Virus record (IMG/VR): IMGVR_UViG_3300032046_004340
Span: 1 to 45,245 of that record
Direction: 5' to 3' (one strand)
Source: a virus
DNA: 45,245 nucleotides
Shown here piece after piece: positions 1,937 through 45,245 of the stretch (position 1 is its first letter; every line of letters begins with the position of its first letter). A model generated the notes under the pieces. That model was not told the DNA's origin and searched no databases. It was given only the letters and a program-made list of their open reading frames with translations. The translations under genes and the position numbers were made by a program.

Positions 1937-1953
1937 ATAGTTTACATCGAAAA

Positions 1954-1978
1954 GTTTATATACTAATTGGTATATACT
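1954..1978 (+). promoter_or_regulatory. archaeal promoter with inverted repeat over the TATA box
   Basis: The TATA box TTTATATA lies at 1955-1962, preceded by a purine-rich BRE-like stretch (CGAAAAG). The inverted repeat TATATAC / GTATATA (1957-1963 and 1970-1976, 6-base spacer) overlaps the box. Transcription would start near 1985, leaving a leader with GGAGG before the ATG at 2027. The repeat is placed to act as a repressor operator. Confidence 0.65.
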
Positions 1979-2026: not shown

Positions 2027-2233
2027 ATGCAGTACAAATTGCGTCCGATTGTCAGGTCAAATTCTAGGATCACACTCGGCCTGACTGTCCCGGATGATGT
2101 GGCGATTTTTTTCAAAGGATGCTTTTTCACAGTCGAAAAATCTGGCACATGCATAATCTTCGCATCTGGAACATCAATTATTCCAACACAAAAAGAGGTA
2201 GAAACTTATGACTTTTCTGATTGCAGAATATGA
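2027..2233 (+). CDS. small AbrB/SpoVT-like regulator candidate, 68 aa
   Basis: The start at 2027 is set by the strong GGAGG at 2019-2023; a longer frame from 1967 would begin inside the promoter. The 68-residue product reads as short beta strands with glycines: PIVRSNSRITLGLTVPDDVA, then FFKGCFFTVEKSG. This resembles the swapped-hairpin AbrB fold (sequence R-x-V-x-S-x-S-R-I-T-L-x-x-P). If so it could bind the inverted repeat just upstream and regulate itself. The similarity is weak and no alignment could be run. Confidence 0.45.
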   Translation: MQYKLRPIVRSNSRITLGLTVPDDVAIFFKGCFFTVEKSGTCIIFASGTSIIPTQKEVETYDFSDCRI

Positions 2234-2475: not shown

Positions 2476-3702
2476 ATGAGAATTACAATACTTTCTGACT
2501 CGCCATTTATTCCAACAGGATATCGCAATCAGGCTGTACAACTTGCAAAATATCTCAAAAAAAAAGGGCATGAAATCCACTATCTTGCAAATGCATTTTC
2601 TGGAATTACAATAGATTATGCCAAATTATTTGATGGTACAGAACTGGATTTTAAGATTTATGGAGAATTAGTGCATTCATACTTCCAAGGAACAATGAGC
2701 CAGCATTTGAAAGAGACAAATTCTGAAAGATTTTTTATTTTGCTTGATACATTCATGTTATTTCCATGGCTATTGAACATAGATTTCAACCCAGCAAAAA
2801 GTCTATTTTGGTTCCCATCAGACGGCGGCGGAGGAATGCCAAGGGGATGTGAGCAAATACTCAAGAAGATAGATAAGCCAATTGCGATGAGTAGATTCGC
2901 ACAGAAGCAAGTAAAAGATTATTATGGGATTGATGTGATATATATCCCGCATGGAACTGAACCAGATAAATTCTATAAATTAACTGAAGAAGAAAGAAAC
3001 AAATTAAGAGAAAAATGGGGATTTAAAGATAAGTTCGTGATAGGAGTAGTGGCCAGAAATCAACCCAGAAAAAATCTCGACAGGACAATCAAAGTGATGA
3101 GTTTATTGAAAGAGAAGATACCGAATGCCATCCTATTTTTGCATATGGATCCAAATGATCCAGCAGGGCAGATGTTTTATATGCCAAATTTGATACAAAA
3201 ATACAATTGCGAAAACAGAGTGATTTTCTCAGGCATGCAGGCACACAAAGGATTCGAATGGAGCAGAATGAATGAAATATACAATCTGATGGATATTTTC
3301 TTATTGACAACAAGCGGAGAAGGATTTGGCATACCGATTATAGAAGCAATGAGTTGCGAAGTGCCGATTTTGGCAACAGATTACACCACCACACAGGAAT
3401 TAATAAAGGACAATGAATGCGGACTGGGCATAAAATTATCAGGTACCGAAGAAATAGACTTATTCAAATTAGACTCAAAAGAATATGATAATAAACAAAT
3501 AAATGGAACAATCACTGGAAGCTGGGAAGTAGAAAGGGGATTCTGCTCGATTGAAGATGCAGTCGAAAAGATAAAATTCCTGTATGACAATCCAGAAATA
3601 AGAAAGAAAATGGGATCAAACGGAAGAAAGGCAGTCTTATCAAAGTATGATTTTGAGAATATAATAGGACCTGCTTTGGAGAGGGAAATATGCAATTCAT
3701 AA
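2476..3702 (+). CDS. glycosyltransferase, GT-B fold, GT4-like
   Basis: A 408-residue sugar transferase. The N-terminal acceptor domain opens MRITILSDSPFIPTGYRNQA, typical of GT4-like enzymes with a glycine-containing loop (PTGY). The C-terminal nucleotide-sugar domain has the KNLDRTIKVM region and the EX7E signature, Glu282 to Glu290 in GEGFGIPIIEAM. The family moves a sugar from an NDP-sugar to a glycan or lipid carrier with retention of configuration; donor and acceptor cannot be read here. It begins the carbohydrate island behind GAGGTG and overlaps the next gene by 13 bases. No transmembrane segment is seen, so it should act at the cytoplasmic face. Confidence 0.9.
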   Translation: MRITILSDSPFIPTGYRNQAVQLAKYLKKKGHEIHYLANAFSGITIDYAKLFDGTELDFKIYGELVHSYFQGTMSQHLKETNSERFFILLDTFMLFPWLLNIDFNPAKSLFWFPSDGGGGMPRGCEQILKKIDKPIAMSRFAQKQVKDYYGIDVIYIPHGTEPDKFYKLTEEERNKLREKWGFKDKFVIGVVARNQPRKNLDRTIKVMSLLKEKIPNAILFLHMDPNDPAGQMFYMPNLIQKYNCENRVIFSGMQAHKGFEWSRMNEIYNLMDIFLLTTSGEGFGIPIIEAMSCEVPILATDYTTTQELIKDNECGLGIKLSGTEEIDLFKLDSKEYDNKQINGTITGSWEVERGFCSIEDAVEKIKFLYDNPEIRKKMGSNGRKAVLSKYDFENIIGPALEREICNS

Positions 3703-4562
3703 TAACAGGAAATAGAGGATTGATAGGAAGTCACTTAAAGGAAAGACTGGAGAAAGAAGGACACAGATGCATTGCCACAATAGACAAAAGAGAAGGACAG
3801 GATATTAACTATTTGGCTTATGCAGAACCTGTCGAAGCAGACATAATGTTCCATTTCGGAGCCCAATGCAAGATAAACCAGGCAATCAAGAATCCTATAG
3901 TCCAGCATCTTAACAATGTTGATGGGACATTCAATGTCATGGAATTCTGCAGAAAAAACAACATTCCAAAAATAGTCTATGCAAGCTCCAGCAGAGTATT
4001 AAGCAAAGAGAGAAATCCCTATGTTGCAGGGAAATTATATGGGGAAGAACTTTGCAAGGCTTACCATGAATGCTATGGAATAAACTACATAATCATAAGG
4101 CCAAGCACAGTGTACGGACCATGCTATGATGAAACTGGAAGAGCATTGCACAATTTCATAGTCAACGCATTGAAAGGAGACAATTTAATTATATATGGGG
4201 ACAAAAATAAGACTTTGGATTTCACTTACATAGACGACTTTATAGATGGAATCATGTTAAGCATGAAGAAATGGAATGAAGATTATAATATATCTGGAGA
4301 GGAACGCAAACTCATAGATGTGGCTATAAATATCATAGACAAAACGAACAGCAAGAGCAAAATAATATTGTTGCCGCCAGAAATAGCACAGCCACAACAA
4401 GTAAAAGTAGACACATCAAAATTACGAAAAATGGGATTCAAGCCAAAAATAGGAATTGAGGAAGGAATAGACCGAATGGTTAAATGGTATCAAGAGCATC
4501 CTGCAGCATGGAAATATTATGAAGGAAGTCAAGGGAGGATTTTTCATGGAAACCTTATCTAA
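3690..4562 (+). CDS. NAD-dependent sugar epimerase/dehydratase (extended SDR)
   Basis: A 290-residue extended short-chain dehydrogenase. The Rossmann motif is ITGNRGLIGSHL (residues 5-16, GxxGxxG). The active site shows Ser99-101 (ASSSRV) and Tyr111-x3-Lys115 (YVAGK), followed by the RPSTVYGP substrate-side motif. Members of this family act on nucleotide sugars, for example as UDP-glucose 4-epimerase or as dehydratases, using tightly bound NAD. It is short for the family (about 310-340 aa) but has all core motifs. It is translationally coupled to the GT4 gene upstream and the fused GT2 gene downstream, which fits supply of an activated sugar. Confidence 0.88.
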   Translation: MQFIITGNRGLIGSHLKERLEKEGHRCIATIDKREGQDINYLAYAEPVEADIMFHFGAQCKINQAIKNPIVQHLNNVDGTFNVMEFCRKNNIPKIVYASSSRVLSKERNPYVAGKLYGEELCKAYHECYGINYIIIRPSTVYGPCYDETGRALHNFIVNALKGDNLIIYGDKNKTLDFTYIDDFIDGIMLSMKKWNEDYNISGEERKLIDVAINIIDKTNSKSKIILLPPEIAQPQQVKVDTSKLRKMGFKPKIGIEEGIDRMVKWYQEHPAAWKYYEGSQGRIFHGNLI

Positions 4563-5793
4563 ACTCGTATGCGTTGTGATGGGACAGAATTGTGATAAAT
4601 TCATAAAGATGTGTATACAAAGTATACACAATGCAGATGCAATAATCTATCTAGACGGAGGAAGCAAAGATAAAACTCTAGAAATAATCAAGGAATTCGG
4701 GAATGTACTGATCTTAGAGAATAAATGGGACAAGACCGACAAGGTCATGAATGGAAAGCAAAGAAATTTTTATTTAAATTATTTAAAAAATAACTTTCAA
4801 GGATGGTGGGCATTAGTTTTGGATGCAGATGAAATTGTGGAAAATTTAGACAAAGTCAAGGAATTCATCAATCAATCTCAAAATGAAGATTTTGGGGCAT
4901 TGTGCGTCAAAATGAGACACTTTATAGGTTCGCTTGGTTGGGAAGATGCTTCAAGAGAAACTCATTATGTCCCAAACAGATTATTCAGAATAGACAAAGC
5001 AATAGATTACCCACTACATTCTCACCCTATTCTGAATACAGAAGGAATAGTAACTACAACAGAATGTACAACCATATTTCATTTGGGGCACTTGCCTATA
5101 GAATATATGATTTATATAGTAAACAGATCAAAGCAGCACAAAGAAGATTCAATAATTCATGATAGACAATTCCTTGACTGGTGGCAGAATGCACATCTAT
5201 TTGGAAAATATCCAACTAAAGAAATAAATCCCAGAGAAGTGCCTAAATTAATTTATGAAGGATTAGGAATAGATTTTGATGAGATATATTCTAGTCAAGA
5301 ACAAATAGAATTCAAACATCATCTAATGGTAAAAAGTTGGAATGATTATTTTAAGCCAAAAAGCGTATTAGACTTAGGATGCGGAAGAGGATGTTATCTC
5401 TATTATTGGAACTGGTTTGTGGAAGAGGCAATCGGATTGGAAATAAACAAATGGGCAATCAAGAATGCATTCGTGCCTAATATAAAAGAAGGAGATATCG
5501 CTCATGGATTTATACTTCCATTCACGCCAGAACTCACAACATGCATAGATGTGCTTGAGCATTTGAATGATAAAGATTTGAATTTGGCACTATCCAATCT
5601 CGCGCAATTGGAAGGAAAATTCATATTCTCGATTCCATTTATCGGGGATCCAAATCTTCAGGCAGACAAAACTCATAAACAATTCAAGACAAAAGAGGAA
5701 TGGATCAAATTAATAGAAAGCCATGGAATAAAGATTAAAGAAACGCCAAAAGACTGGTTATTTCATGAACAAATAATTATAGGAGAAAAATGA
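4546..5793 (+). CDS. bifunctional GT2 glycosyltransferase - SAM methyltransferase
   Basis: The start at 4546 is set by GGGAGG at 4534-4539; an ATG at 4519 would put this site inside the gene. The 415-residue product has two domains. Residues 1-200 form a GT-A glycosyltransferase (LVCVVMGQN opening, YLDGGSKDKT, and DAD at 93-95 as the metal/NDP-sugar motif). Residues 260-415 form a class I methyltransferase, with the SAM-binding motif VLDLGCGRG at 274-282 and CIDVLEHL as the acidic/post-I region. Such a fusion suggests that a sugar is added and then methylated, or that a methyl cap ends a chain. Similar GT2-methyltransferase fusions occur in cell-surface glycan clusters. Confidence 0.85.
   Translation: METLSKLVCVVMGQNCDKFIKMCIQSIHNADAIIYLDGGSKDKTLEIIKEFGNVLILENKWDKTDKVMNGKQRNFYLNYLKNNFQGWWALVLDADEIVENLDKVKEFINQSQNEDFGALCVKMRHFIGSLGWEDASRETHYVPNRLFRIDKAIDYPLHSHPILNTEGIVTTTECTTIFHLGHLPIEYMIYIVNRSKQHKEDSIIHDRQFLDWWQNAHLFGKYPTKEINPREVPKLIYEGLGIDFDEIYSSQEQIEFKHHLMVKSWNDYFKPKSVLDLGCGRGCYLYYWNWFVEEAIGLEINKWAIKNAFVPNIKEGDIAHGFILPFTPELTTCIDVLEHLNDKDLNLALSNLAQLEGKFIFSIPFIGDPNLQADKTHKQFKTKEEWIKLIESHGIKIKETPKDWLFHEQIIIGEK
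4610..4630. repeat. perfect 9-bp inverted repeat inside a coding region
   Basis: TGTGTATAC, three bases, then GTATACACA. It lies in codons 22-29 of the fused glycosyltransferase gene. It looks like an operator or a short RNA hairpin, but it is in coding sequence and a role is not established. Confidence 0.6.
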
Positions 5794-6206
5794 AAAGAAA
5801 ATACATGCCAACAATCGCCCAACTGATTGACAGGCTTTGCATAGTAACCCTCAAATCAATCAAGATTCCTGAAAACAAGAAGGAATATGAGAAAGAAGCA
5901 AAGGACATAATGCATGATATAAACATAACAATTCCAAAAGGAATGGGAGATATGGGCCAACTAATCAGGGCAATCCAAGTGAATGCAATAGCAAATGAGA
6001 CGATTTGGACAAATGAAAGCAAAGCCAGGACAGGAGGAAGCGAGCAAGACAAATTATTAAAATTTACTCATTCAGTAAATGGAGTCAGAAACGCAGCAAT
6101 GAATGTAATTAGTCAATTAATTGGAGAAAGAAAAGATTTGAAACTCGATTGTCTAGCAGCAGAATTGTGTAAAGAGAAAGGATACGATTTTTCAAGTATA
6201 TTTTAA
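5790..6206 (+). CDS. hypothetical helical protein, possibly DUF4254-like
   Basis: A 138-residue protein coupled to the preceding gene by an ATGA overlap. It contains PTIAQLIDRLCIVTLKSI and ANETIWTNESKAR. These recall the LIDRLSIVNLK and LWxxEDxAR patterns I associate with DUF4254-type proteins found in surface-glycan clusters. The match is from memory and weak. Predicted to be all-helical, no catalytic motif. Its place in the middle of the island suggests a role in the same pathway or in protein-protein contact between its enzymes. Confidence 0.5.
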   Translation: MKRKYMPTIAQLIDRLCIVTLKSIKIPENKKEYEKEAKDIMHDINITIPKGMGDMGQLIRAIQVNAIANETIWTNESKARTGGSEQDKLLKFTHSVNGVRNAAMNVISQLIGERKDLKLDCLAAELCKEKGYDFSSIF

Positions 6207-6207
6207 A

Positions 6208-6402
6208 ATGGAAAAAGGAATATATAAGCATTCAAAAGAAGCAATAGAAAAGATGAAAAGGAATCATGCAGATTTTTCTGGAGAAAAGAATCCAAGATAT
6301 AAAGGAGAAAGAGTAAGTAAATCAGGATTACATATTTTTAATTGCGTATTCAAAGAAAAACAATCTAAACTAAACTCGGATGGCAAATTACCCCAACCTT
6401 AA
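6208..6402 (+). CDS. small NUMOD3-like protein, possible nuclease remnant
   Basis: A 64-residue gene one base after the previous stop. The N-terminal half (HSKEAIEKMKRNHADFSGEK, then NPRYKG) matches the NUMOD3 DNA-binding repeat that precedes HNH or GIY-YIG domains in homing endonucleases. The remainder has no catalytic residues. An HNH gene follows immediately in another frame (6405), so this may be half of a split homing endonuclease or a separate DNA-binding piece. Confidence 0.5.
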   Translation: MEKGIYKHSKEAIEKMKRNHADFSGEKNPRYKGERVSKSGLHIFNCVFKEKQSKLNSDGKLPQP

Positions 6403-6404
6403 AA

Positions 6405-6647
6405 ATGGTTAAGACAGCAGAAGCAATAGCAAAACAAATGAAAGATAAAGTCTGTTATTGTTGTGGAAGAACAAAGGAAATAACTATCCATCATTTAAGA
6501 GATATTCATATAAAAACAAAAAGTGGTAAAGGAATGTTTAATGGTTATATTTTATTATGTAGAGATTGTCATGATTTTGTTGAAGAAATAAATAATAAAC
6601 ATAAGTCATATCTTAAAAAACTAATAAAGGAGGTGGAAAATGAATGA
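6405..6647 (+). CDS. HNH endonuclease, small
   Basis: An 80-residue HNH nuclease. A zinc pair (CYCCGRT) is followed by ITIHHLRDI, which supplies the first His pair, then the central Asn (NGYILL), and CRDCHDFVE, which supplies the second Cys pair and last His. The size and spacing fit free-standing HNH proteins. Placed inside the sugar operon and next to a NUMOD3-like gene, it looks like a selfish homing-type insertion rather than a pathway member. Host-style DNA processing is the alternative. Confidence 0.72.
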   Translation: MVKTAEAIAKQMKDKVCYCCGRTKEITIHHLRDIHIKTKSGKGMFNGYILLCRDCHDFVEEINNKHKSYLKKLIKEVENE

Positions 6648-7299
6648 ACAAGACTTAATCAATTTTGAAAAGGACATAGCACAAAACTATTCAGAAGCAA
6701 AAATAAGAGGACCTGTTCACCTTTCAGGTGGAAACGAAGGACAATTAATTCAAATATTTGAAAAAATAAAAAAAGAAGATTGGGTATTTTCAACTCATAG
6801 GAATCATTATCATGCATTGCTTAAATCGAATGATCCTAAATGGCTTAAAGAACAAATATTCCTTAAAAGGAGTAGCCATATAAATTCAAGAAAACATAAA
6901 TTTTTTACAAGTGCAATAGTAGGGGGAATATGCCCAATAGCCTTGGGAGTTGCTCTGGCTATAAAAAGAAATTGGGATAATAACATTAGATGTATAGATT
7001 TATCTTATATGAATTTAAAGAAAAAAATAATTGGAAAATGTATGGATATGCCTCATGTATGGTGTTTTGTAGGAGATATGGCAAGTGAGATGGGGATATT
7101 CCATGAATGCCTGAAATATGCAAGAGGACATAAATTACCAATCACTTATATAATAGAAGATAATGGATTTGGAGTTTATACTCCGACAAGCAAAGTATGG
7201 AAAGAAAGAACATTATTTCACGATCTAAAGAACCTGGATGGATATTTTTATAAGAGAATCTATCCTCATTATGGAATCGGGAAGTGGATATTATTTTAA
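6640..7299 (+). CDS. thiamine-diphosphate enzyme, E1 alpha-like (PP domain)
   Basis: A 219-residue protein resembling the alpha subunit of 2-oxo acid dehydrogenases or the PP half of transketolase. It has the HLSGGNEGQL and STHRNHYHAL substrate-channel regions. The ThDP/metal motif starts at Gly145-Asp146 (GDMASEMGIFHE) and ends with Asn175 (IIEDN), the GD-x28-N pattern. Family knowledge: this domain binds the diphosphate, and a partner supplies the catalytic Glu. The partner is the gene at 8164. It is shorter than a usual E1 alpha (about 330 aa). Residues 112-137 are an unusual insert between the substrate loop and the ThDP motif. GGAGG precedes the start. Confidence 0.8.
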   Translation: MNEQDLINFEKDIAQNYSEAKIRGPVHLSGGNEGQLIQIFEKIKKEDWVFSTHRNHYHALLKSNDPKWLKEQIFLKRSSHINSRKHKFFTSAIVGGICPIALGVALAIKRNWDNNIRCIDLSYMNLKKKIIGKCMDMPHVWCFVGDMASEMGIFHECLKYARGHKLPITYIIEDNGFGVYTPTSKVWKERTLFHDLKNLDGYFYKRIYPHYGIGKWILF

Positions 7300-7300
7300 A

Positions 7301-8176
7301 ATGGATGAAACAAAACTGAAAATACAAGTGCATCATATAGGAGGAATAGGAGACTGCGGACCGGCAGAGCAAATGACAATGCTCAAGGATGATGTCAAGT
7401 GGACATTCTATGATGCAAGTGAGGAATCATTAGAAAAATGCAATATTGAGAATAAAGACGCAACCTTGATAAACAAAGCAATAGGTGGAGAAAACAATAA
7501 AGTCAAGTTTAATATAATGAAAAACAAATCAGCAAGCAGTGTATTAATGCCTGCAAAATCCGCAGAGGAATATGCAATCCCCGGAACAGATATATCCTGG
7601 GGAGAGCATACAGAAATTATAGGAACAGAGGAAATAGAGTTAAACAAACTTGACACATTAATTGAAAAAGGAGAAATATCCAAACCAGACTTTTTATCAA
7701 TAGATGTCCAAGGTACGGAATTGGAAGTGATCAAAGGAATACAGGAAAATCTTAAGGATGTGCAGGGACTTGTATGCGAGGTCGAATTCTCTCAATTGTA
7801 TGAAGGACAAGCACTTTTTCCAGAAATATTCAACAAAATGAAAGATAATGGATTCAGATTCTGCGCATTTTACAATATGCAGTATTTCCCTTCTCATACA
7901 TTTGCAAAACAAGTAAGAGGATTCGGATTCCTTACAGTGGCAGAAGCACTATTCTTAAGGGAGCCAAAATTCGATGATTTAACGGCAGACAAAATTGTCA
8001 AATTATTTAAATTGTGCGCAATAGCAATATGCTTCAATCAAAGGGATTGGGCTCACTACATACTTGAGATAATGAGGCTCAAAGGAGTAAATATATGGGA
8101 CTGCGACAAGGAAAATAAGTTCTTTTATATGAATAAATTAAAGGAGGCATATAGAATTCACACATGGAATATTTAG
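7301..8176 (+). CDS. FkbM-family methyltransferase
   Basis: The start at 7301 follows the upstream TAA by one base; a longer frame from 7238 would run through the previous gene. The 291-residue product has a weak N-terminal SAM-binding region (HHIGGIGDCGPAE, residues 11-23) and the FkbM hallmark FLSIDVQGTELEVIKGI with Asp135. FkbM enzymes are usually O-methyltransferases acting on sugars or polyketides. Here the gene sits between the two halves of the thiamine enzyme, so it probably methylates the product of the same pathway. The C-terminal 80 residues are helical and not assignable. Confidence 0.82.
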   Translation: MDETKLKIQVHHIGGIGDCGPAEQMTMLKDDVKWTFYDASEESLEKCNIENKDATLINKAIGGENNKVKFNIMKNKSASSVLMPAKSAEEYAIPGTDISWGEHTEIIGTEEIELNKLDTLIEKGEISKPDFLSIDVQGTELEVIKGIQENLKDVQGLVCEVEFSQLYEGQALFPEIFNKMKDNGFRFCAFYNMQYFPSHTFAKQVRGFGFLTVAEALFLREPKFDDLTADKIVKLFKLCAIAICFNQRDWAHYILEIMRLKGVNIWDCDKENKFFYMNKLKEAYRIHTWNI

Positions 8177-8712
8177 AAGAATGCAAAAAAGCAATGGAAT
8201 GGTTAAGCCAAAAGAAAGATACAATCTTCATAGGACAAACTGTAGTGTATGAAGGAAGCCCAATGTATAGAAGTCTGATCGATGTGCCAATCAGTAAGAA
8301 AATAGAAATGCCAATCGCAGAAGATATGCAGATGGGAATAAGCATTGGACTGGCACTTGAAGGATTCATACCTATTTCAATCTATCCAAGAATAGACTTT
8401 TTATTGTGTGCTATCAACCAATTAATCAATCACCTTGACAAAGTAGAGGAAATGAGTCATGGGGAATTCAGACCAGGAGTAATAATTAGAACACAGATAG
8501 GAAACACAAAGCCACTATATCCAGGACCACAACATTGCGGAAATTATTATCAAGGATTAAAAGAACTATGCAAGAACATATTGGTAATCAAGATAGAAAA
8601 GGCAGAAAGCATAATAGAATGTTATGAATTAGCATATGCAAGAGCCCAGACAGGATCATCAACTTTATTAATAGAAACACCTCAAGGAGGGAGGAATCCA
8701 AACAAAAAATAA
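8164..8712 (+). CDS. thiamine-diphosphate enzyme, E1 beta-like (Pyr domain only)
   Basis: A 182-residue pyrimidine-binding domain of a ThDP enzyme. The key Glu53 lies in MPIAEDMQMGISIGLALEG, matching the glutamate that activates the thiamine ring in E1 beta and transketolase. The next stretch (PRIDFLLCAINQLINH) is the conserved F-D-x2-x2-A-x-D/N-Q-I-x-N region. The usual third (transketolase C-terminal) domain is absent. With the gene at 6640 it would form a minimal two-domain heteromer. No lipoyl E2 gene is seen, so carboligation or decarboxylation of a sugar precursor is more likely than a dehydrogenase complex. Confidence 0.78.
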   Translation: MEYLEECKKAMEWLSQKKDTIFIGQTVVYEGSPMYRSLIDVPISKKIEMPIAEDMQMGISIGLALEGFIPISIYPRIDFLLCAINQLINHLDKVEEMSHGEFRPGVIIRTQIGNTKPLYPGPQHCGNYYQGLKELCKNILVIKIEKAESIIECYELAYARAQTGSSTLLIETPQGGRNPNKK

Positions 8713-8713
8713 A

Positions 8714-8890
8714 ATGGGAAGAACAAAACAAGACAAAGCAAGAATAAGCAAGCAGGAGCATGAAATAGTTTATTTGAGAAAAATTGCTAGAGAATATCTA
8801 AAGGAAACTCAAAATGGAGTTGGATGTGATATTCAAAGAAGATTAGCAAAAGCAGTATTAAAATTCACAAAGGGAAAATGCAAGGAGTAA
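8714..8890 (+). CDS. small basic hypothetical protein, 58 aa
   Basis: Begins one base after the upstream stop and overlaps the cupin gene start by 13 bases. Product: MGRTKQDKARISKQEHEIVY and onward, basic and predicted to be helical. No domain recognised. The tight packing on both sides supports it as a real gene. Confidence 0.55.
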   Translation: MGRTKQDKARISKQEHEIVYLRKIAREYLKETQNGVGCDIQRRLAKAVLKFTKGKCKE

Positions 8891-9252
8891 CAATCTGGAA
8901 TGCTCAAATAGCCCATGAAGATGAGCGAAGAAGCATAATGCCTATATTTAATGGAGAATTTACAGCCAGGCAAATCAAGATACTGAGAGCAAAAAAGGGA
9001 AGCATACTGGGAAACCACTATCATCTATATTCAGAGATTAGGTACCTAATGAAAGGAGAAGTTTATTACTGGCTTTTGAACAAGAGAACAAGCGAAAAAA
9101 TAGAGTTCATAATGCATGAGGGGGAAATAATGATGACGGGACCAGAGATAGTGCACACAGGGGAATTCATGAAAGATTCAATAATGATAGAAGGAACTGA
9201 GGATCCTTATATTTCAGCAGAAATAAATGATTACAAGGAGATATTAAAATAA
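8878..9252 (+). CDS. cupin-fold sugar-modifying protein (WxcM/FdtA-like)
   Basis: A 124-residue single cupin. It reads DERRSIMPIF, then GSILGNHYHLYSEIRYLMKGE (the first cupin box with two His and a Glu) and PEIVHTG (the second box His). Cupins of this size in glycan clusters are often sugar 3,4-ketoisomerases (FdtA/WxcM type) or dTDP-sugar epimerase relatives, which act on keto-sugars made by dehydratases. The next gene encodes just such a dehydratase-like SDR and overlaps this stop. The exact reaction is inference. Confidence 0.72.
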   Translation: MQGVTIWNAQIAHEDERRSIMPIFNGEFTARQIKILRAKKGSILGNHYHLYSEIRYLMKGEVYYWLLNKRTSEKIEFIMHEGEIMMTGPEIVHTGEFMKDSIMIEGTEDPYISAEINDYKEILK

Positions 9253-10364
9253 TTATAAATTTTATTACAGGAATAGGTGGATTTGTAGCTTCGCATTTGG
9301 CAGAATATTTATTGTCTAAAGGCGAAAAAGTTATAGGTACATACCGATGGAATGAAGACTTGACAAGACTAAAAAAATTCAATAAAAATGAAATAGTATT
9401 CATTCCGATGGATCTAAACGATTTGTCTAGTTGCATCAGAGCAATTAAAAATACAAAGCCAGACTATATATTTCATTTGGCAGCACAATCTTATGTACCA
9501 GACAGTTTCATTTATCCAGAGGAAACCATAAGAACAAACACAATAGGAACCCTGAACTTGCTAGAAGCGGTAAGAATAGTCAGAGAAGATCTAAGCCGCA
9601 CAAACGAATACGGAATAATCTATGATACAGAAGAGCCAGAAATAGGAAAAATAAAAAATATATGCAACAAGGAGACTGGGGAAACATTGAATTTAATCAA
9701 TGTGCAAGCATCAGGAAGATTTGATCCAGTTATTCATGTATGCAGCAGTTCGGAAGTATATGGACTTGTCAAAAAAGAGGATATACCTATCAAGGAAAGC
9801 CAACCATTTAATCCATCAAATCCTTACGCAATAGGAAAAGTAGGGGAAGATATGGTAGGACTAATGTACTGGACAAATTATGGAATAAAAACAATCAGGA
9901 CTCGAATGTTCACCCATACAGGACCAGGTAGAACCATGATGAGCGCAGAATGTAACTTTGCTAGGCAGATTGTTAAATTAGAAAAGAGACATAGCAATCT
10001 ATGCAAAGGAGAGATAGAACCAATAAAACATGGGAATTTAGATTCAATAAGGACTTGGGCGGATGTTAGAGATGCAGTAAGAGCATATTGGTTGTTGGTT
10101 AGAAAATGTAAACCAGGAGAAGTTTATAACATTGGAGGTAATACAACAAAAACAATTGGGGAGATGCTGGATTATTTGATAAGTATAAGCACAATATCTG
10201 GGCATTTATGGAAACAATTGGATCCAACCTTATTAAGATCATACGATGTGACGCTTCAAATCCCGGATTGCTCAAAATTCATAAATGAAACAGGATGGAA
10301 ACCAGAATATAAATTCGAGCAAACAATGCTGGACCTTCTAGATTGGTGGAGGCAAAACATATGA
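9249..10364 (+). CDS. GDP-mannose 4,6-dehydratase-like SDR, probable ATA start
   Basis: An extended SDR of about 371 residues. The Rossmann motif FITGIGGFVASHLAEYLL starts too early for the first TTG at 9297, which would cut off the cofactor site. The frame continues upstream without ATG, GTG or TTG. ATA at 9249 sits 8 bases after AAGGAG (9235-9240) and overlaps the previous stop, so it is the best start. Active-site motifs: SSSEVYG and Tyr-x3-Lys in NPYAIGK. The GPGRTMMSAECNFARQI and GNLDSIRTWADVRD stretches match the GDP-mannose 4,6-dehydratase/Rmd group. Role: making a 4-keto-6-deoxy nucleotide sugar. Confidence 0.85.
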   Translation: MIINFITGIGGFVASHLAEYLLSKGEKVIGTYRWNEDLTRLKKFNKNEIVFIPMDLNDLSSCIRAIKNTKPDYIFHLAAQSYVPDSFIYPEETIRTNTIGTLNLLEAVRIVREDLSRTNEYGIIYDTEEPEIGKIKNICNKETGETLNLINVQASGRFDPVIHVCSSSEVYGLVKKEDIPIKESQPFNPSNPYAIGKVGEDMVGLMYWTNYGIKTIRTRMFTHTGPGRTMMSAECNFARQIVKLEKRHSNLCKGEIEPIKHGNLDSIRTWADVRDAVRAYWLLVRKCKPGEVYNIGGNTTKTIGEMLDYLISISTISGHLWKQLDPTLLRSYDVTLQIPDCSKFINETGWKPEYKFEQTMLDLLDWWRQNI

Positions 10365-11608
10365 GAGCAAATTTTATAATTTTAAGTTGGAAATATTGGG
10401 AACAACCATTAAGAGCCCAACCATTAACCCAAATGTATCTGGCCACAATACTGGAAGAAAGAGGAGTTTCAATAAAATTCACAGACTTTAGGGATGGACC
10501 AAAGAAGCCAGAGGATGCAGATATTTATTTCTACACAGTGGCATCTCCAGACTTCGAGGAAGTGAAAGAAATAGTTGCAAACATAAGAAAGACTTCAAAA
10601 TCTCCGCATATTGCGGGCGGAGCTCACCCAAACATATTTCCTCAGGAATCATTAGAGATTTTTGATTCGATAGTTCTGGGCAGAGGAGAGGAATCAATTG
10701 TGCAAGTAACAAAAGACATCTTAAACAATAAACTCAAAAAAACATATGACATGCCTGCAAATGGAGAATATCCCTTTCCAAAAAGACATTTTTTACCAAA
10801 AGAAAAGATAATAACAAGTTTATTCAAAACAGAAAACATTCCAAGCACAACTGTATTATTCTCCCATGGATGCCCATATTATTGCAGTTTCTGCGCCAAT
10901 TACAACCGAATGCCCATCCAAAGAAGGTCCATAGAAAGCATATCAAACGAGCTAGATTACCTCAAAAAAGAATATGGATTAAAGGGAGTAAGTCTTCAGG
11001 ATGAAATATGTTTTCCAAGCAATCCTAATGAATTCTTCAATTTTATGAATTTAATGAAATCAAAGGATATATTATGGAGAGGGCAAGCCAGGGCAGGAAT
11101 AAACGAAGCAGACATACAAGAGGCATCAAAATCCAATTGTTTGGAATTATCAATAGGCCTTGAGAGTGTGGACCAGAATGTATTAAACATAGCCAGAAAA
11201 GGAATAAAAGTAGAAATGGCCAGGCAGACAATGGATTACTGCAAAAAGTACGGAATCAAAGTGAGATTATATCTGCTTAATGGTCTTCCAGGAGAGCCAA
11301 AAGATATTGTAGAACGAACAAAGCAATTCATAAATGAAACAAATCCAGATGTAGTTTTATTAAGCACATTGCAGCCATATCCTGGATGCGACATATATAA
11401 CAACCCAAAAAAATATGGGATCAAATGGATAGACAAGGATTTCACAAAATACAATCATCTAAGATGCAGATTCGCAGACTCAAAAGATAAAATAGAGGAA
11501 GCAGTGCCATTTGAATATGTGAAAGGAAGAGGATTCACAAGGAAACAAATAATGAGTAATCTGATAGAAATGCAAACATTCCTAAGGGAAAGAGGATTGA
11601 ACAAATGA
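10361..11608 (+). CDS. radical SAM enzyme, B12-binding type (first)
   Basis: Start at 10361 by ATGA overlap; a TTG-type extension from 10343 is less likely. A 415-residue protein. Residues 1-130 form a Rossmann-like region as in cobalamin-binding radical SAM enzymes (HIAGGAHPN is conserved), though a DxHxxG cobalamin ligand motif is missing, as in many members. The [4Fe-4S] site is Cys171-x3-Cys175-x2-Cys178 (CPYYCSFC), followed by the TIM-barrel core with IGLES and YLLNGLPGE. The family makes C- or P-methylations and ring rearrangements. In this cluster C-methylation of a sugar is plausible. Confidence 0.85.
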   Translation: MRANFIILSWKYWEQPLRAQPLTQMYLATILEERGVSIKFTDFRDGPKKPEDADIYFYTVASPDFEEVKEIVANIRKTSKSPHIAGGAHPNIFPQESLEIFDSIVLGRGEESIVQVTKDILNNKLKKTYDMPANGEYPFPKRHFLPKEKIITSLFKTENIPSTTVLFSHGCPYYCSFCANYNRMPIQRRSIESISNELDYLKKEYGLKGVSLQDEICFPSNPNEFFNFMNLMKSKDILWRGQARAGINEADIQEASKSNCLELSIGLESVDQNVLNIARKGIKVEMARQTMDYCKKYGIKVRLYLLNGLPGEPKDIVERTKQFINETNPDVVLLSTLQPYPGCDIYNNPKKYGIKWIDKDFTKYNHLRCRFADSKDKIEEAVPFEYVKGRGFTRKQIMSNLIEMQTFLRERGLNK

Positions 11609-12234
11609 AAATATTAAATCTTTATGCAGGAATAGGTGGAAATAGAAAGTTATGGACCGGACACGAAATCATAGCAGTAGAAAATATCCCAGAGATAGCA
11701 AAAATATATCAAGAATTCTTCCCAGAAGATAAGATTATAATTGCGGATGCACATCAATTCTTATTAGAGCATTTTCAAAAGTTTGATTTTATATGGAGCA
11801 GTCCGCCTTGTCAAAGTCATTCAGGAACAAACAATTTTTTGAAAGGTCAAGGAATATTCAGATTTCCAGATATGAAATTATATGAAGAAATCATTTTTTT
11901 AAAGCATTTTTTCAAAGGAAAGTGGGTAGTAGAAAATGTCAAACCTTACTACAAGCCACTGATTGAACCACAAAGAATAGGAAGACATTGCTTCTGGGCA
12001 AATTTTAAAATAGAACCCATAAAAATTGATTATCAAATAGGCACAATGAATAGACAAGCAAGCAAAGAGAAACAAAGGAAAGCAATAATAAGAGAAGCAC
12101 AAATCCCAGAATTAATAGATTTGCATGGACTAAACAATTTAAAAATTAAATTAAAAAACAAAAGACAAATATTAAGGAATTGTGTATTGCCAAAAATAGG
12201 AGAACATATATTAAAATGTGCAAGCATCAAATGA
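11605..12234 (+). CDS. C5 cytosine-specific DNA methyltransferase-like protein
   Basis: A 209-residue protein. It has SAM motif I (LNLYAGIGGNRKLW), the catalytic PCQ loop with Cys69 (SSPPCQSHSG) and the ENV motif (VVENVKP, 110-112). These define C5-type methyltransferases, which methylate cytosine carbon 5. It is shorter than typical Dcm enzymes (over 300 aa): the C-terminal target-recognition region is small, so it is either a compact phage type or partly degenerate. It is coupled on both sides to sugar genes. It may protect viral DNA from restriction, or start a larger base modification. Confidence 0.82.
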   Translation: MKILNLYAGIGGNRKLWTGHEIIAVENIPEIAKIYQEFFPEDKIIIADAHQFLLEHFQKFDFIWSSPPCQSHSGTNNFLKGQGIFRFPDMKLYEEIIFLKHFFKGKWVVENVKPYYKPLIEPQRIGRHCFWANFKIEPIKIDYQIGTMNRQASKEKQRKAIIREAQIPELIDLHGLNNLKIKLKNKRQILRNCVLPKIGEHILKCASIK

Positions 12235-12905
12235 TACCCTTAATTGTTATTCCAGTCTATAATGACTTAAAATACTTCCAAATGGCAGTGGAAAGCATCT
12301 TTAAATCCACAGAGCAGCCATTCACTTTGATTATCATAGAAAGCGAGAGCACAGATGGAAGCGCAGAATACACAGACAAACTGAAAGAGATATATCCAGG
12401 CAAGGACATAGAGATAATCCACACAAAAAAGGAAGGGCCAATGAAGGCGATGAATCTCGGATTTAAATTGGCTTTGGAAAGAAAGAAAGACATATACTTC
12501 ACACAGACAGATGTAATCCATACCGGAATGTTTGACAGGGACTGGCTGATGGAATATGAGGCAATTGGAAAGATGCCTGATTGTGGGATTGCAACTTGCT
12601 GGGGAGGAGGAGGAACAGCATGCGACAATTATGTGAACAATTTTCAATGGGTAGGTGGATGGAGCACATACATACCATATAAGACTATTGAGAAATTAGG
12701 AGGATATGATGAGAACTTCGAAATAGGATGGGGAGCAGACATAGAATATTCATGGAGAATTATAAATGCAGGGCTAAGAATTTATAGGATAGATTATTGG
12801 GTGTATCATCATCGTAGAACGCCACATCTAAATGACATGAATGAAGAGATAAAAAGAATAGACAAACAAAATTCTGCCTATTTCAGGAGGAAATATAATA
12901 TATGA
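12231..12905 (+). CDS. GT2 family glycosyltransferase
   Basis: Start at 12231 (ATGA overlap, product MIPLIVIPVYND). An ATG at 12216 is possible; the TTG at 12180 is unlikely. The 224-residue GT-A enzyme opens with the classic IPLIVIPVYN strand. It continues with ESESTDGS, EGPMKAMNLGF, a TQTDV stretch in place of the usual DxD, and GWGADIEYSWRIINAG, which carries the acidic catalytic-base region. GT2 enzymes use NDP-sugars with inversion. The DxD replacement (QTD) is notable but still ends in Asp. The acceptor is unknown. Confidence 0.85.
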   Translation: MIPLIVIPVYNDLKYFQMAVESIFKSTEQPFTLIIIESESTDGSAEYTDKLKEIYPGKDIEIIHTKKEGPMKAMNLGFKLALERKKDIYFTQTDVIHTGMFDRDWLMEYEAIGKMPDCGIATCWGGGGTACDNYVNNFQWVGGWSTYIPYKTIEKLGGYDENFEIGWGADIEYSWRIINAGLRIYRIDYWVYHHRRTPHLNDMNEEIKRIDKQNSAYFRRKYNI

Positions 12906-14164
12906 AAGTCACATTAATCAATCCGCCAAGTCCATTTCTATTAGATGAAAGAGTATTTCCTTATCTGGGAATACTTTCAGTAGCAACATCTTGGAAACAC
13001 AGAGGAATGGATGTAGAGATAATGGACTTAAATGGAATCAAAAATTGGAAAAAAGAAATCAAATCAATAGAAAGCAAATTAGTTGGAATATCATCCACAT
13101 CAGCACAATTCAAATATGCATACGAAATCAACAGGATTTTAAAAAGAAGAGGCAAAACAACATTCATAGGAGGACCGCATGCAACAGCAATCTATTCATT
13201 GAGGGACAAAGGAATAACAGATATCAATACCCAAAGACTGGAGGAATTTGACATGATCATAGCCGGAGACGGAGAAAACGCATCATTAACCGGAAAGAAA
13301 TGGACAAAGACAGAATTGATTGATATAAACAAATTGCCAATCCCAGACAGAAGAATGATAAATATAAAGTCATACAAATATCAGATAGATGGAAGAGACG
13401 CAACAATCATAATGACCCAAAGAGGTTGTCCATTCAGGTGTGAATTCTGCTGTGGAAGGGACATAGAAATGTACAGCATTCCTAGGCAAAGGGATCCTAA
13501 AGATGTTGTGAAGGAAATGGACTATCTCCATGATGAGTTTGGATTTTCCGCATTTATGTGGTTTGATGATGAAATAAATATAAATTCGCACAGATTGACA
13601 GAATTGGCAAAGTTGCTCAAAGACAGGGACTACAAACATAGGGGATTTGTCAGAAGTGACTTATTAGTAAAGCATCCGAAAGTCATAGACCATCTAGTAG
13701 AAGCGGGATTTGTGGAATTGTGCAGCGGAATAGAAAGTGGATCAGATAGAATACTCAGAATAATCAACAAAGGAACAACCAATCAAATAAATATACAGGC
13801 CGCAAGAATGATCCAAGAACATGGAATGAAATATAAGGCATTCACTATATTAGGGCACCCATCCGAAACATATGAAGATGTAATGATGACCAAGCGATTT
13901 ATTCAGGAAATAAAGCCAGATTCATTTGATGTGACAATATTAACTCCCTATCCTGGAAGCAGGATCTATGATTGTGCAGAGCCATCAAATAAGTTTAGAG
14001 TATATAGATTTGAATATAAGGGATTATACTTCAACATGCCAGACTTCTCAAGGCATGAAGTATTCTACAAAGGACAAGGAGCTCACCCATGCTTTTCCAG
14101 AACAGAAGAATTAAATTCAACAGACCTATTGAATCTGAGAGAGGAGCTATTAAAATGCATATAG
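12902..14164 (+). CDS. radical SAM enzyme, B12-binding type (second)
   Basis: A 420-residue protein that starts in an ATGA overlap. The N-terminus MKVTLINPPSPFLLDERVFP and the GGPHAT turn are typical of the cobalamin-binding half of BchE/HpnP-like radical SAM proteins. The iron-sulfur site is Cys176-x3-Cys180-x2-Cys183 (CPFRCEFC). Core elements FDDEININ, CSGIESGS and TILGHPSET follow. It shares architecture with the gene at 10361 but differs widely in sequence, so they are probably separate reactions and not a recent duplication. It is placed between two GT2 genes. Confidence 0.86.
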   Translation: MKVTLINPPSPFLLDERVFPYLGILSVATSWKHRGMDVEIMDLNGIKNWKKEIKSIESKLVGISSTSAQFKYAYEINRILKRRGKTTFIGGPHATAIYSLRDKGITDINTQRLEEFDMIIAGDGENASLTGKKWTKTELIDINKLPIPDRRMINIKSYKYQIDGRDATIIMTQRGCPFRCEFCCGRDIEMYSIPRQRDPKDVVKEMDYLHDEFGFSAFMWFDDEININSHRLTELAKLLKDRDYKHRGFVRSDLLVKHPKVIDHLVEAGFVELCSGIESGSDRILRIINKGTTNQINIQAARMIQEHGMKYKAFTILGHPSETYEDVMMTKRFIQEIKPDSFDVTILTPYPGSRIYDCAEPSNKFRVYRFEYKGLYFNMPDFSRHEVFYKGQGAHPCFSRTEELNSTDLLNLREELLKCI

Positions 14165-14991
14165 ATATAATGGTAGTAAGCATAGACAGGCCAACTGAAA
14201 TCGCACTTTTACTTCAAAGCCTTAGAACTCAGACACATAAAGAATGGGATCTTTATATCATGGATGACCGATCAGGAGTACCTTACCCAAACCATCATTT
14301 CATAATATCACTGATCAATAGAATAAAACTGGAAGGGCACCATGTAACGGTCTGGAGGAATGACATAAGATATGGAGTGACTAAATTAAGGCAAAAAGTG
14401 GTAGACAAGATCATGGAAGAAGGAAAAGGTGAAGCAATACTTAGGCTTGATGATGACAATATATTAGAGCCAGATTATATTGAAAGATTAGTGAATGTAC
14501 TAAACCAAGGATATGATATTGCAAGCGGACTGGTGCCTCATATAGCAATTCCATTTATCAAAAGGGAAACTCGATTTGTAAAGCCATTCATAGCAGACAT
14601 AATATTAAATGAAGATGGATCAATAAAAAGCTTTGGAGACGACTGCGGATGTGAATATATCGAAAAAGAAATTATACCAAGTCCTCACTTTAGAAGTATG
14701 GCATTAATCAGGAAGAAAGTCCATGAGAAAGTCAAATATGAGGACAATCTCGGATTCTGCAGCTTCAGGGAAGAGGAATTCTTTAGTTTCAAGGCAATTA
14801 TAGAGGGATTCAAAATTGGAGTGGATACAGGAGCAATCGCATATCATTTGTGCACACCTAGTGGAGGCGAAAGAACCCCAGAATTTCAGAATAACCTGCA
14901 ATATAACCATAATCGATTAAATGAATTTACAAAGGAATTATTTAAAAAGCATGGAGATTTCATAAGTAAATACAAGGAGCAATTCAAATGA
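14155..14991 (+). CDS. GT2 family glycosyltransferase
   Basis: The start at 14155 (MHIDIMVVSIDRPTEIALLL) is chosen over an upstream in-frame start at 14089 because it restores the normal GT2 N-terminus. 278 residues. It has TQTHKEWDLYIMDDRSG, LRLDDDN as the DxD metal-binding motif, and later FREEEFFSFKAIIEGF as the acceptor-side acidic motif. It should transfer one sugar from an NDP-sugar. Coupled to its neighbours by short overlaps. The substrate cannot be deduced. Confidence 0.85.
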   Translation: MHIDIMVVSIDRPTEIALLLQSLRTQTHKEWDLYIMDDRSGVPYPNHHFIISLINRIKLEGHHVTVWRNDIRYGVTKLRQKVVDKIMEEGKGEAILRLDDDNILEPDYIERLVNVLNQGYDIASGLVPHIAIPFIKRETRFVKPFIADIILNEDGSIKSFGDDCGCEYIEKEIIPSPHFRSMALIRKKVHEKVKYEDNLGFCSFREEEFFSFKAIIEGFKIGVDTGAIAYHLCTPSGGERTPEFQNNLQYNHNRLNEFTKELFKKHGDFISKYKEQFK

Positions 14992-15386
14992 GGGATATAA
15001 AGATGAATAAATATTTTCCAACAGGCAAATCTATTCATTCACAAATTAAACATAGAAAAAGAAATTTAAGAAATTGTAAAGCAATATGTGATAATTGTAA
15101 AATAATAAGCAGAACAAGACATATGCATTTTGTTAAAGGAGAATATTGGTGTTATAATTGTTATCAAAAGACTAAAGGATGTAGAATAAATATGGGAACA
15201 TTTACTATCCAACAAAAAGCAGAATCAATATTAAGAAAATTACAAGATATAGATGATAATAAAATTAGAAAAGTTAGGGGACCCTATGGATATAGGTCAC
15301 AATATAGTATTAATGTTCCTTCTTGTTATAAAAATAAATTTGTGAGAATTATTGTTATGGGGGAATTCAAATGCCACGAGACATAA
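14988..15386 (+). CDS. zinc-ribbon hypothetical protein, 132 aa
   Basis: Starts in an ATGA overlap. It contains two Cys pairs, CDNC (around residue 34) and CYNC (around residue 55), separated by a His-rich stretch (TRHMHFVKGEYW), consistent with a zinc finger of about 25 residues. The second half ends in a beta-rich segment (YRSQYSINVPSCYKNKFVRI). The reading frame is visibly more AT-rich than its neighbours and uses softer codons, which suggests a separate origin. Function unknown; DNA or RNA binding is possible. Confidence 0.6.
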   Translation: MRDIKMNKYFPTGKSIHSQIKHRKRNLRNCKAICDNCKIISRTRHMHFVKGEYWCYNCYQKTKGCRINMGTFTIQQKAESILRKLQDIDDNKIRKVRGPYGYRSQYSINVPSCYKNKFVRIIVMGEFKCHET

Positions 15387-15523
15387 AGCAAATATTGAAA
15401 GGGGAATTCCCTGGAGAAGACAAGCCAATAACAGAAAGGAAATGTTTAAATTGCGGATATATAAGAAGATATGGAACAAAATGCCCAATGTGCGGAGAAA
15501 TAAAAAGCGAGGCAGTCAAATGA
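15371..15523 (+). CDS. zinc-ribbon miniprotein, 50 aa
   Basis: A short gene overlapping the preceding stop by 16 bases and the next start as ATGA. After a 24-residue lead it shows CLNCGYIRRYGTKCPMCG, a compact CxxC-x9-CxxC zinc ribbon. Such ribbons are common as protein or nucleic acid adaptors in archaea. It likely reads through with the glycosyltransferase gene that follows. Confidence 0.7.
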   Translation: MPRDIKQILKGEFPGEDKPITERKCLNCGYIRRYGTKCPMCGEIKSEAVK

Positions 15524-16590
15524 AATTCACAATAGTTGGCTCAATTTTTGACAGCAGCGGATATTCAATCCACACAAGAGAACTTTTCAAGGCACTTTCA
15601 AACATAGCAGATGTAAGACTCGAAATCCCATTAATCCCTAACTGGAATAGATTAATCACCGACAAGGAGCTTGAAGCAATCAAGAAGCCAGATGACAAGG
15701 ACAGGATAAGAATAATAATCACAAGTCCGCTTTATTGGAAACTTAACACAACAACAGGCAGAAACTGGGCATATATGATTTGGGAGGGAAATAAAGTGCC
15801 TAAATGCTTTATAGAGGAATGCCTGAATCCAGACATAGAATATATACTTTGCCCGAGCAATCACACAAAGCAAGCAATATTAAACACATCTTCTGAAAAG
15901 GATACTGAAATTGAATTATTAAACAAGAAAATAAGAATAATCCATCACGGAGTGGATCTTAATCTATTCTATCCAAAAGAAAAGCCAAACAAATGCATAT
16001 TTATAGCAAACAAAGGATTAAGAGGGCCAGAAGATAGAGGCGGACTTCAATACTTAATTAAAGCATTTATAGAAGAATTTACAGAAGAAGATGTGGAATT
16101 GATTATTAAAATAAACCCTGCATACGGGATAATAGACATAAACAATTTAATGATGCAGATGCAGATCCCAGCAAAGAAATATCCAAAGATAACAATCAAT
16201 AATCAACTGATGAATTATGAGGAATTGGTAAAATTCTATAACCAAGGGACAGTTTTCGTAAGTCCAACAAGAGCAGAAAGTTTTAACATTCCATGCTTGG
16301 AAGCAATGGCATGCGGCTTGCCAGTTTTAACTACAAACTTTGGAGGGCAAACAGATTTTGTGAATGAAGAAAATGGATGGCTGATCGGCGGAGAAATGAC
16401 AGAAGTCAAATGGGATTTAATGTACGAAGGGATTTCTTGGTTAATTCCATATTATCAAGATTTGAGAAAAATGTTAAGATGGATTTTTGAACATACTGAA
16501 GGCGTTAATAAGAAGAGCCAAAAAGCGTTAGAGACAGCCAAACAATTTACATGGGAAAACAGTGCCAAAAAGTTGATTGATTTAATATAA
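15520..16590 (+). CDS. glycosyltransferase, GT-B fold, GT4-like
   Basis: The start at 15520 forms an ATGA overlap; the long frame reaching back to 15352 overlaps two other genes and is not used. 356 residues. The N-terminus MKFTIVGSIFDSSGYSIHTREL gives the acceptor domain. IRIIHHGVDLNLFYP is the conserved domain-linker motif. The EX7E signature is Glu253-Glu261 (RAESFNIPCLEAM), followed by CGLPVLTT. It is the last gene of the carbohydrate island and is followed by a gap with a new promoter. Confidence 0.9.
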   Translation: MKFTIVGSIFDSSGYSIHTRELFKALSNIADVRLEIPLIPNWNRLITDKELEAIKKPDDKDRIRIIITSPLYWKLNTTTGRNWAYMIWEGNKVPKCFIEECLNPDIEYILCPSNHTKQAILNTSSEKDTEIELLNKKIRIIHHGVDLNLFYPKEKPNKCIFIANKGLRGPEDRGGLQYLIKAFIEEFTEEDVELIIKINPAYGIIDINNLMMQMQIPAKKYPKITINNQLMNYEELVKFYNQGTVFVSPTRAESFNIPCLEAMACGLPVLTTNFGGQTDFVNEENGWLIGGEMTEVKWDLMYEGISWLIPYYQDLRKMLRWIFEHTEGVNKKSQKALETAKQFTWENSAKKLIDLI

Positions 16591-41996: not shown

Positions 41997-42019
41997 AAGC
42001 AATTTACAATGATATTTTG

Positions 42020-42400: not shown

Positions 42401-42440
42401 GTTCGATTTAAAGATTCAGATAAAAAAGATATGAGGTATG

Positions 42441-45244: not shown

Positions 45245-45245
45245 A
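45119..45245. repeat. terminal direct repeat, right copy
   Basis: Identical to 1-127; see the left copy. It closes the circle. Confidence 0.93.

Follow-up and report, generated by a model that had tools for sequence, protein, structure and literature searches.

The window discussed here is the whole of a 45,245-bp IMG/VR virus record (IMGVR_UViG_3300032046_004340), and our subject is a cassette of sugar and glycan genes at positions 2476-16590. Because an exact 127-bp direct terminal repeat (DTR) is present (1-127 = 45119-45245), the window is a complete genome of ~45.1 kb. The main genes are all on the + strand. Late genes encode small and large terminase subunits, a portal/head-morphogenesis protein, a protease-like protein, an HK97-type capsid protein, a tail tube protein, and a tape measure protein. 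The terminase large subunit (TerL), portal, HK97-type capsid, and tail tube together identify a head-tailed virus of the Caudoviricetes type.

Gene content of the cassette

The cassette (Table 1) encodes five glycosyltransferases (GTs), two nucleotide-sugar short-chain dehydrogenases/reductases (SDRs), a cupin, a two-subunit thiamine diphosphate (ThDP) enzyme, an FkbM methyltransferase, and two B12-type radical S-adenosylmethionine (SAM) enzymes. A preliminary description of the window had named all of these families, and the genes are indeed intact open reading frames (ORFs), at or near the places it gave, that match Pfam and related profiles. Its estimate that carbohydrate chemistry takes up about 31% of the genome agrees with the measured 14.1 of 45.1 kb. 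The operon-like character that it proposed is likewise supported. The genes overlap by a few bases, with sole clear gaps at 8712-8878 and about 15386-15520, and are nearly colinear in four other IMG/VR viruses. These sister viruses are G1 (IMGVR_UViG_3300035698_011691, 49.4 kb), G3 (3300020045_005117, 44.6 kb), G4 (3300020171_000029, 61.0 kb), and G5 (3300014656_003390, 65.8 kb).

Table 1. Elements of the sugar cassette and its surroundings, with the supporting matches (percentages are amino acid identities)
Feature	Position	Strand	Evidence
Archaeal-type promoter ahead of cassette: B recognition element (BRE) CGAAAAG, TATA box TTTATATA	1949..1962	+	Sequence itself
Small ORF, ~68 aa, upstream of cassette; possible regulator	2027..2233	+	Relatives at same place in sister viruses
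GT4a, GT4 glycosyltransferase	2476..3702	+	Pfam Glycos_transf_1 9e-26; orthologues in 4 viruses, 46-72%
SDR1, extended SDR, nucleotide-sugar epimerase/reductase	3690..4562	+	Pfam Epimerase 2e-37; orthologues 51-55%
GT2-MT, GT2 glycosyltransferase fused to SAM methyltransferase	4546..5793	+	Glycos_transf_2 4e-8 and Methyltransf_23 2e-5; orthologues 47-59%
138-aa protein, weakly DUF4254-like	5790..6206	+	In 2 of 4 main sister clusters, 68-77%
64-aa ORF, likely insertion, weakly NUMOD3-like, possible homing endonuclease remnant	6208..6402	+	Absent from G1 cluster and other carriers
HNH endonuclease, likely insertion	6405..6647	+	Pfam family match
TPPa, miniature E1-alpha (ThDP-binding) subunit	6640..7299	+	Pfam E1_dh 6e-18; orthologues 59-67%
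FkbM-family O-methyltransferase, window virus and G1 only	7301..8176	+	Pfam 4e-19; NCBIfam fkbM above cut-off
TPPb, miniature E1-beta (pyrimidine-binding) subunit without transketolase C-terminal domain	8164..8712	+	Transket_pyr 0.0018; PRK09212 E1-beta 2e-9; 59-75%
Cupin, metal-binding type	8878..9252	+	Pfam Cupin_2 2e-5 (weak); HxH...E...H motif; in all five viruses
GMD, GDP-mannose 4,6-dehydratase-like	9249..10364	+	Pfam GDP_Man_Dehyd 6e-59
rSAM1, B12-binding radical SAM	10361..11608	+	Pfam Radical_SAM 8e-19, B12-binding 2e-10; CxxxCxxC
Compact C5-cytosine DNA methylase, likely insertion	11605..12234	+	Pfam DNA_methylase 3e-9; G4 copy outside G4 cassette
GT2b, GT2 glycosyltransferase	12231..12905	+	Pfam Glycos_transf_2 7e-13; 44-51%
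rSAM2, B12-binding radical SAM	12902..14164	+	Pfam Radical_SAM 1e-24, B12-binding 8e-8; 51-67%
GT2c, GT2 glycosyltransferase, scaffold marker	14155..14991	+	Pfam Glycos_transf_2 5e-11; in 19 viral contigs
132-aa cysteine-rich protein, likely insertion	14988..15386	+	No Pfam match; absent from sister clusters
GT4b, GT4 glycosyltransferase	15520..16590	+	Glyco_trans_1_4 3e-15; Glycos_transf_1 8e-14; 46-58%
tRNA with 40-nt intron, directly upstream of displaced cassette genes	40528-40639		Rfam 47 bits; ARAGORN
R236, class I SAM methyltransferase fold, displaced cassette member	40653..41363	+	AlphaFold2 pLDDT 84; Foldseek prob 1.00 to methyltransferases
SDR_S, FabG-like SDR, displaced cassette member	41341..41961	+	Pfam adh_short 2e-19

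The earlier gene list does need amendment. The GT2 gene at 4546 proved to be a GT2-methyltransferase fusion, and four ORFs (at 6208, 6405, 11605, and 14988) are not recognizable as sugar genes. These four are without counterparts in the sister clusters and look like insertions; HNH genes occupy other cassette positions in G1, G3, and G4. The bounds of the island are real, but two members far downstream had been missed. Orthologues of R236 and SDR_S sit between GT2b and rSAM2 in G1, G4, and G5 and are displaced in the window virus and G3, and their place inside the cluster in those three viruses is the reason for assigning both genes to the pathway. The 138-aa protein also occurs in several more distant viral sugar clusters. 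The small upstream ORF, judged by eye to be AbrB-like, had no match in Pfam, and that label was set aside.

Several cassette products retain the motifs of their families. SDR1 keeps TGxxGxIG and YxxxK, and the GMD active site is intact (ITGIGG, SSSEVYG, and YAIGK as the YxxxK motif). GMD scores 118 bits to gmd and 128 bits to dTDP-glucose dehydratase, both under the equivalog cut-off. No ATG, GTG, or TTG that would retain its NAD-binding motif is present in the interval 9235-9300, and the apparent start codon is ATA or ATT, preceded by a strong Shine-Dalgarno (SD) site (AAGGAG). Both rSAM1 and rSAM2 have the class B layout, in which a B12-binding domain precedes a radical SAM domain with CxxxCxxC, and no equivalog model reached its cut-off for either protein.

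Conservation and apparent modularity

About 16 genes are near-colinear across the five tailed-virus genomes, in the common order GT4a, SDR1, GT2-MT, TPPa, TPPb, cupin, GMD, rSAM1, GT2b, R236, SDR_S, rSAM2, GT2c, GT4b. This conservation, at 41-79% identity in the four other viruses, excludes chance. G3 is complete, with its own 121-bp DTR, and shows synteny to the window from end to end; the two terminases are 58% identical and the capsids 68%. G4 and G5 have the capsid in common at ~50% and carry their structural genes on the opposite strand. The source metagenome of G1 has been described for Ace Lake, Antarctica (PMC8542988).

These comparisons bear on two alternatives. That the cassette entered the record as an assembly chimera, or as host DNA mis-binned as virus, is a notion for which we found nothing in favor; the same cassette occupies the same place in the complete G3 genome, these two genomes are syntenic throughout and each bears an exact DTR, and the cassette is joined to terminase or portal genes in many independent contigs, so that this explanation can be regarded as practically negligible. 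A second idea, that the virus carries host genes as non-functional filler, has been raised as a possibility for cyanophage lipopolysaccharide (LPS) clusters (PMC3037559). We judge it highly improbable here, because order, reading frames, and active sites are kept at 41-79% identity in five viruses and across two virus lineages, which implies purifying selection.

The genes of the cassette do not all appear to have been inherited as one block. Maximum-likelihood trees were built with five taxa, which is few and does not amount to a formal recombination test. Those of GT4a, GT2-MT, GT2b, R236, GT2c, GT4b, and the portal separate the window virus and G3 from G1, G4, and G5. The TPPa, TPPb, rSAM1, and rSAM2 trees instead set G4 and G5 (100% support for this pair) apart from the window virus, G1, and G3, and the cupin tree groups G3 with G5. 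Transferases and virion genes therefore differ in part in their history from the sugar-making genes. Those for the ThDP and radical SAM enzymes appear to travel together with one common history. A scan with GT2c found 19 viral contigs, most of which have terminase or portal genes near GT4b. Five of these (L058 and L063-L066) keep the transferases and have no TPP genes within the stretch examined, and several scaffold contigs are without TPP or GMD genes. As judged from these trees and contigs, the sugar-making genes appear to be exchanged independently of the transferase scaffold. Sister clusters also add genes, namely an HddA-like kinase in G5, an RfaE-II/HldE-like nucleotidyltransferase in G1, and a split transketolase in both (that of G5 was identified by reading its sequence).

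A miniature ThDP enzyme and its counterparts

The ThDP motif GD...N is conserved in TPPa (GDMASEMG...EDN/ENN), and the catalytic Glu of TPPb is invariant within (I/V)EMP..E. At 182 aa, TPPb falls short of a full-length subunit with a transketolase C-terminal domain, and 77 of 86 complete viral TPPb copies are below 200 aa. A search with a five-sequence TPPb alignment located the miniature pair in no fewer than 113 viral contigs, of which 80 were kept; among complete ORFs, the median length is 204.5 aa for alpha and 176.5 aa for beta. On this evidence the pair seems to constitute an unnamed viral enzyme family. IMG/VR contigs with the pair (L073-L151 and others) range in GC content from 0.26 to 0.64 and often carry sugar dehydratases or radical SAM genes. 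In cyanophage S-SM2, alpha and beta are fused into a 402-aa protein within the sugar island, 34-35% identical to TPPa and TPPb, whose family, phrog_34187, is listed with unknown function.

Functional parallels come from antibiotic clusters. The split ThDP enzymes AviB1/AviB2 and Pau11/Pau12 have been proposed to transfer a two-carbon (C2) branch from pyruvate onto keto-sugars (PMC4753412), and the two-subunit ThDP enzyme KbDH is described as catalyzing C2 branching of keto-sugars from pyruvate (PMC12247030). Like these split enzymes (alphaKADH2), the viral pair consists of E1-alpha- and E1-beta-type subunits with a ThDP motif and a catalytic Glu, and it is encoded beside sugar 4,6-dehydratases. 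Unlike them, it is viral, measures only ~205 + 177 aa, and is without the transketolase C-terminal domain. Characterized C2-branching ThDP enzymes have fuller domains of the E1 fold. We propose by analogy that TPPa/TPPb may work as these enzymes do, and make no claim of family membership.

Among cellular genomes, the pair was present in 1 of 299 Pseudomonadota genomes and in 4 of 399 genomes of the order to which that one belongs (that one included). In all four, the neighborhood of the pair includes a B12-radical SAM gene, a GHMP kinase gene (HddA-like in the cases tested), and either an HddC-like nucleotidyltransferase or a set of SDRs. Two of these heptose-type islands (G256 and G530) resemble the cassette in combining the miniature ThDP pair, SDRs, and B12-radical SAM genes, and their HddA-like kinase is in common with sister virus G5; they differ from it in having an aminotransferase and an HddC-like enzyme and in being without the cupin and the five-transferase scaffold. 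Of these two islands, one adjoins genes for flagellin and a GT41 glycosyltransferase, and the other also contains a GT41 enzyme. GT41 enzymes glycosylate cytoplasmic proteins. A search of the literature turned up no paper that links ThDP and radical SAM enzymes to flagellin glycosylation. The preliminary description had named a chromosomal copy of the cluster without adjoining virus genes as a refutation; this was checked only weakly, by a GTDB-wide pattern scan with rSAM1 alone, which gave a single distant bacterial relative (36%). Among 50,697 phage records, GT2c has no relative, and those of rSAM1 and rSAM2, from Streptomyces phage SF3 and a single faecal phage, are distant.

Proposed pathway, target, and probable host

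With moderate confidence, we favor the reading that the cassette directs the cytoplasmic synthesis of a C2-branched, methylated sugar that soluble transferases attach, most likely to a virion protein. In this scheme, the host would supply a nucleotide sugar, which must be assumed because the window is without the kinase, nucleotidyltransferase, and transketolase of the sister clusters. The precursor is probably heptose-derived, given the HddA-like kinase of G5, the RfaE-II-like nucleotidyltransferase of G1, and the split transketolase of both. The GMD-type dehydratase would convert it to a 4-keto-6-deoxy sugar, which the cupin and SDR1 would adjust. TPPa/TPPb might then attach a two-carbon branch derived from pyruvate, in the manner suggested for AviB1/AviB2 and Pau11/Pau12, and rSAM1 and rSAM2 could add C-methyl groups or perform a related radical step. 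O-methyl groups would come from R236, FkbM, and the methyltransferase domain fused to GT2. The preliminary description had suggested an unusual methylated or branched sugar with its own transferases, and the present evidence supports such a sugar, probably both branched and methylated. Its phrase "nearly complete pathway" is apt only with an activated precursor from the host, since no kinase or nucleotidyltransferase was recognized here and two sister clusters carry such genes.

The five soluble glycosyltransferases would build the chain on a cytoplasmic protein. This route is favored because no flippase, polymerase, or phosphoglycosyltransferase (lipid-phosphate sugar transferase) was recognized in the cassette, and hydropathy gives no convincing membrane helix in any of its products (the sole segment above 2.0 is in the E1-alpha core). 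A virion protein is suggested as the target because the cassette abuts terminase, portal, or capsid genes in most carriers. The resulting sugar coat might protect particles or alter host attachment, and its composition could change by swapping of the sugar-making genes while the transferase scaffold stays.

The main rival is remodeling of the host surface, whereby the S-layer, an N-linked or lipid-linked glycan, or the archaellum would be altered to block superinfection or to mask the cell, much as phages convert O-antigens. A lipid-linked host sugar at the cytoplasmic face could be a substrate for all five transferases, and relatives of the sugar module in cells are found within islands that resemble surface-glycan loci. 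Furthermore, an exported protein of the window virus (36236-39742) contains 58 N-X-S/T sequons where 26 would be expected (z 7.8). However, no counterpart of this protein was found in G1, G3, G4, or G5, nothing in the cassette was recognized as a membrane transferase, flippase, or oligosaccharyltransferase, and linkage to terminase and portal genes fits virion modification better. We consider surface remodeling the less likely reading. The sequon-rich product (1168 aa, with an N-terminal membrane segment and a laminin-G-like domain) was also considered as a dedicated acceptor for the cassette glycan and set aside, since none was found in the other four viruses.

Modification of viral DNA with a sugar, as a defense against restriction, was among the uses first suggested. 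A C5 DNA methylase gene lies in the island and a ParB-methyltransferase fusion is nearby, which would fit that idea. Nevertheless, no base-hydroxylating or nucleotide-modifying enzyme was recognized among the proteins searched, and the methylase is absent from the sister cassettes and lies outside the cassette in G4. Moreover, no known DNA modification consists of a long branched glycan needing five transferases. DNA hypermodification is therefore very unlikely.

Several observations weigh against virion glycosylation by a branched sugar. No sugar kinase or nucleotidyltransferase was recognized in the window, and no acceptor protein has been identified. TPPa/TPPb are without the C-terminal domains of the characterized C2-branching enzymes, so their substrate and donor are extrapolated. 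In SDR_S, the catalytic Tyr is replaced by Phe (FxxxK for YxxxK) in all five viruses, which makes a standard ketoreductase step doubtful. Transferases bound peripherally to the membrane, which would lengthen a lipid-linked glycan of the host, could escape the hydropathy test. Lastly, flagellin adjoins only one of the four bacterial islands, and the other three may serve LPS.

The host is probably an archaeon. Four features point in this direction, namely an intron-bearing tRNA, the BRE/TATA promoter that precedes the cassette, the sequon enrichment, and the frequency of strong SD sites, which occur at 22 of 57 starts where 3.9 would be expected. Because TerL (19747-21123) is nearest to that of Flavobacterium phage 11b (48% identity), we infer this host rather than regard it as demonstrated. 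A Bacteroidota host, which the TerL likeness might indicate, was provisionally set aside on the same four features. Flavobacterium-like TerL in an archaeal-looking virus suggests an exchange of packaging genes between domains.

The tRNA was missed by a whole-window Rfam search at the gathering threshold and recovered by a local one. ARAGORN calls it Thr(AGT); with the intron at position 37/38, which is canonical in archaea, the anticodon becomes CAT (Met/Ile2). In G3, tRNA-Thr(TGT) and tRNA-Met(CAT) directly follow the same displaced genes. The interval 42000-42440 comprises ~400 nt without a gene and has no Rfam match at E <= 1 except the nearby tRNA. Elsewhere, the ParB-like/DNA methyltransferase fusion (18034-19386) adjoins the terminase genes and is apparently represented by separate ORFs in a relative (L003). 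A leader, CTTTTAAAAGTTTTAGAGGAAAAATG, recurs ahead of small early genes (95-153, 904-962, 1295-1353, and ~42618) and is possibly a common promoter or ribosome-binding element. Small genes near the genome ends have in common the start AAAATGAAAACTGAAAAAG (409, 675, 1058, 43543, and 44664) and an N-terminal MKTEK, and 21-bp tandem repeats at 44833-44979 encode a coiled-coil-like run of KLDEAWQ.

Virus-encoded sugar pathways are not new in themselves, and the claim that such a pathway had not been described must be narrowed. T4-like cyanophages S-SM2, P-SSM2, and S-SSM7 carry large sugar/LPS islands (PMC3037559). These islands of ~20 kb resemble the cassette in their nucleotide-sugar SDRs, heptose enzymes, cupin-type gene, and glycosyltransferases; they reside, however, in bacterial phages of ~190 kb, with no B12-radical SAM match and little common gene order, and clear similarity is limited to TPPa/TPPb, the dehydratase, and an SDR. 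Giant viruses (chloroviruses and mimivirus) encode their own glycosylation (PMC9614988). In a manner similar to the role proposed here, they bring sugar-nucleotide enzymes and transferases to glycosylate their capsids, but they are large eukaryotic viruses with different enzymes and a known acceptor. For viruses of methane-cycling archaea, O-antigen-type sugar genes and GT2/GT4/GT9 have been reported (PMC9723712), in passages that take the form of a gene inventory and describe no conserved pathway cassette. What appears to be new is a small-genome, modular, multi-virus cassette in which two B12 radical SAM enzymes accompany a miniature ThDP enzyme.

More speculatively, these viruses might represent an archaeal tailed-virus family with self-contained, modular particle glycosylation. 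Its scaffold would be inherited with the virion genes, and its sugar-making genes would be swapped between lineages to yield glycan "serotypes" of a C2-branched, C-methylated sugar, with the miniature ThDP carboligase (in at least 100 viruses) as the chemical core. We advance this broader proposal tentatively. If it is true, viruses of 45-65 kb bring a whole unusual-sugar pathway, beyond single transferases, as core equipment, and the order of the cassette is kept in distinct lineages beside packaging genes while its chemistry is exchangeable. The small two-part ThDP carboligase and the two B12 radical SAM enzymes may also find use in the preparation of branched sugars. A likely function would be given to phrog_34187 and to the miniature ThDP pair of more than 100 viral contigs, and probable archaeal viruses would provide a case of sugar-coat variation that can be tested.

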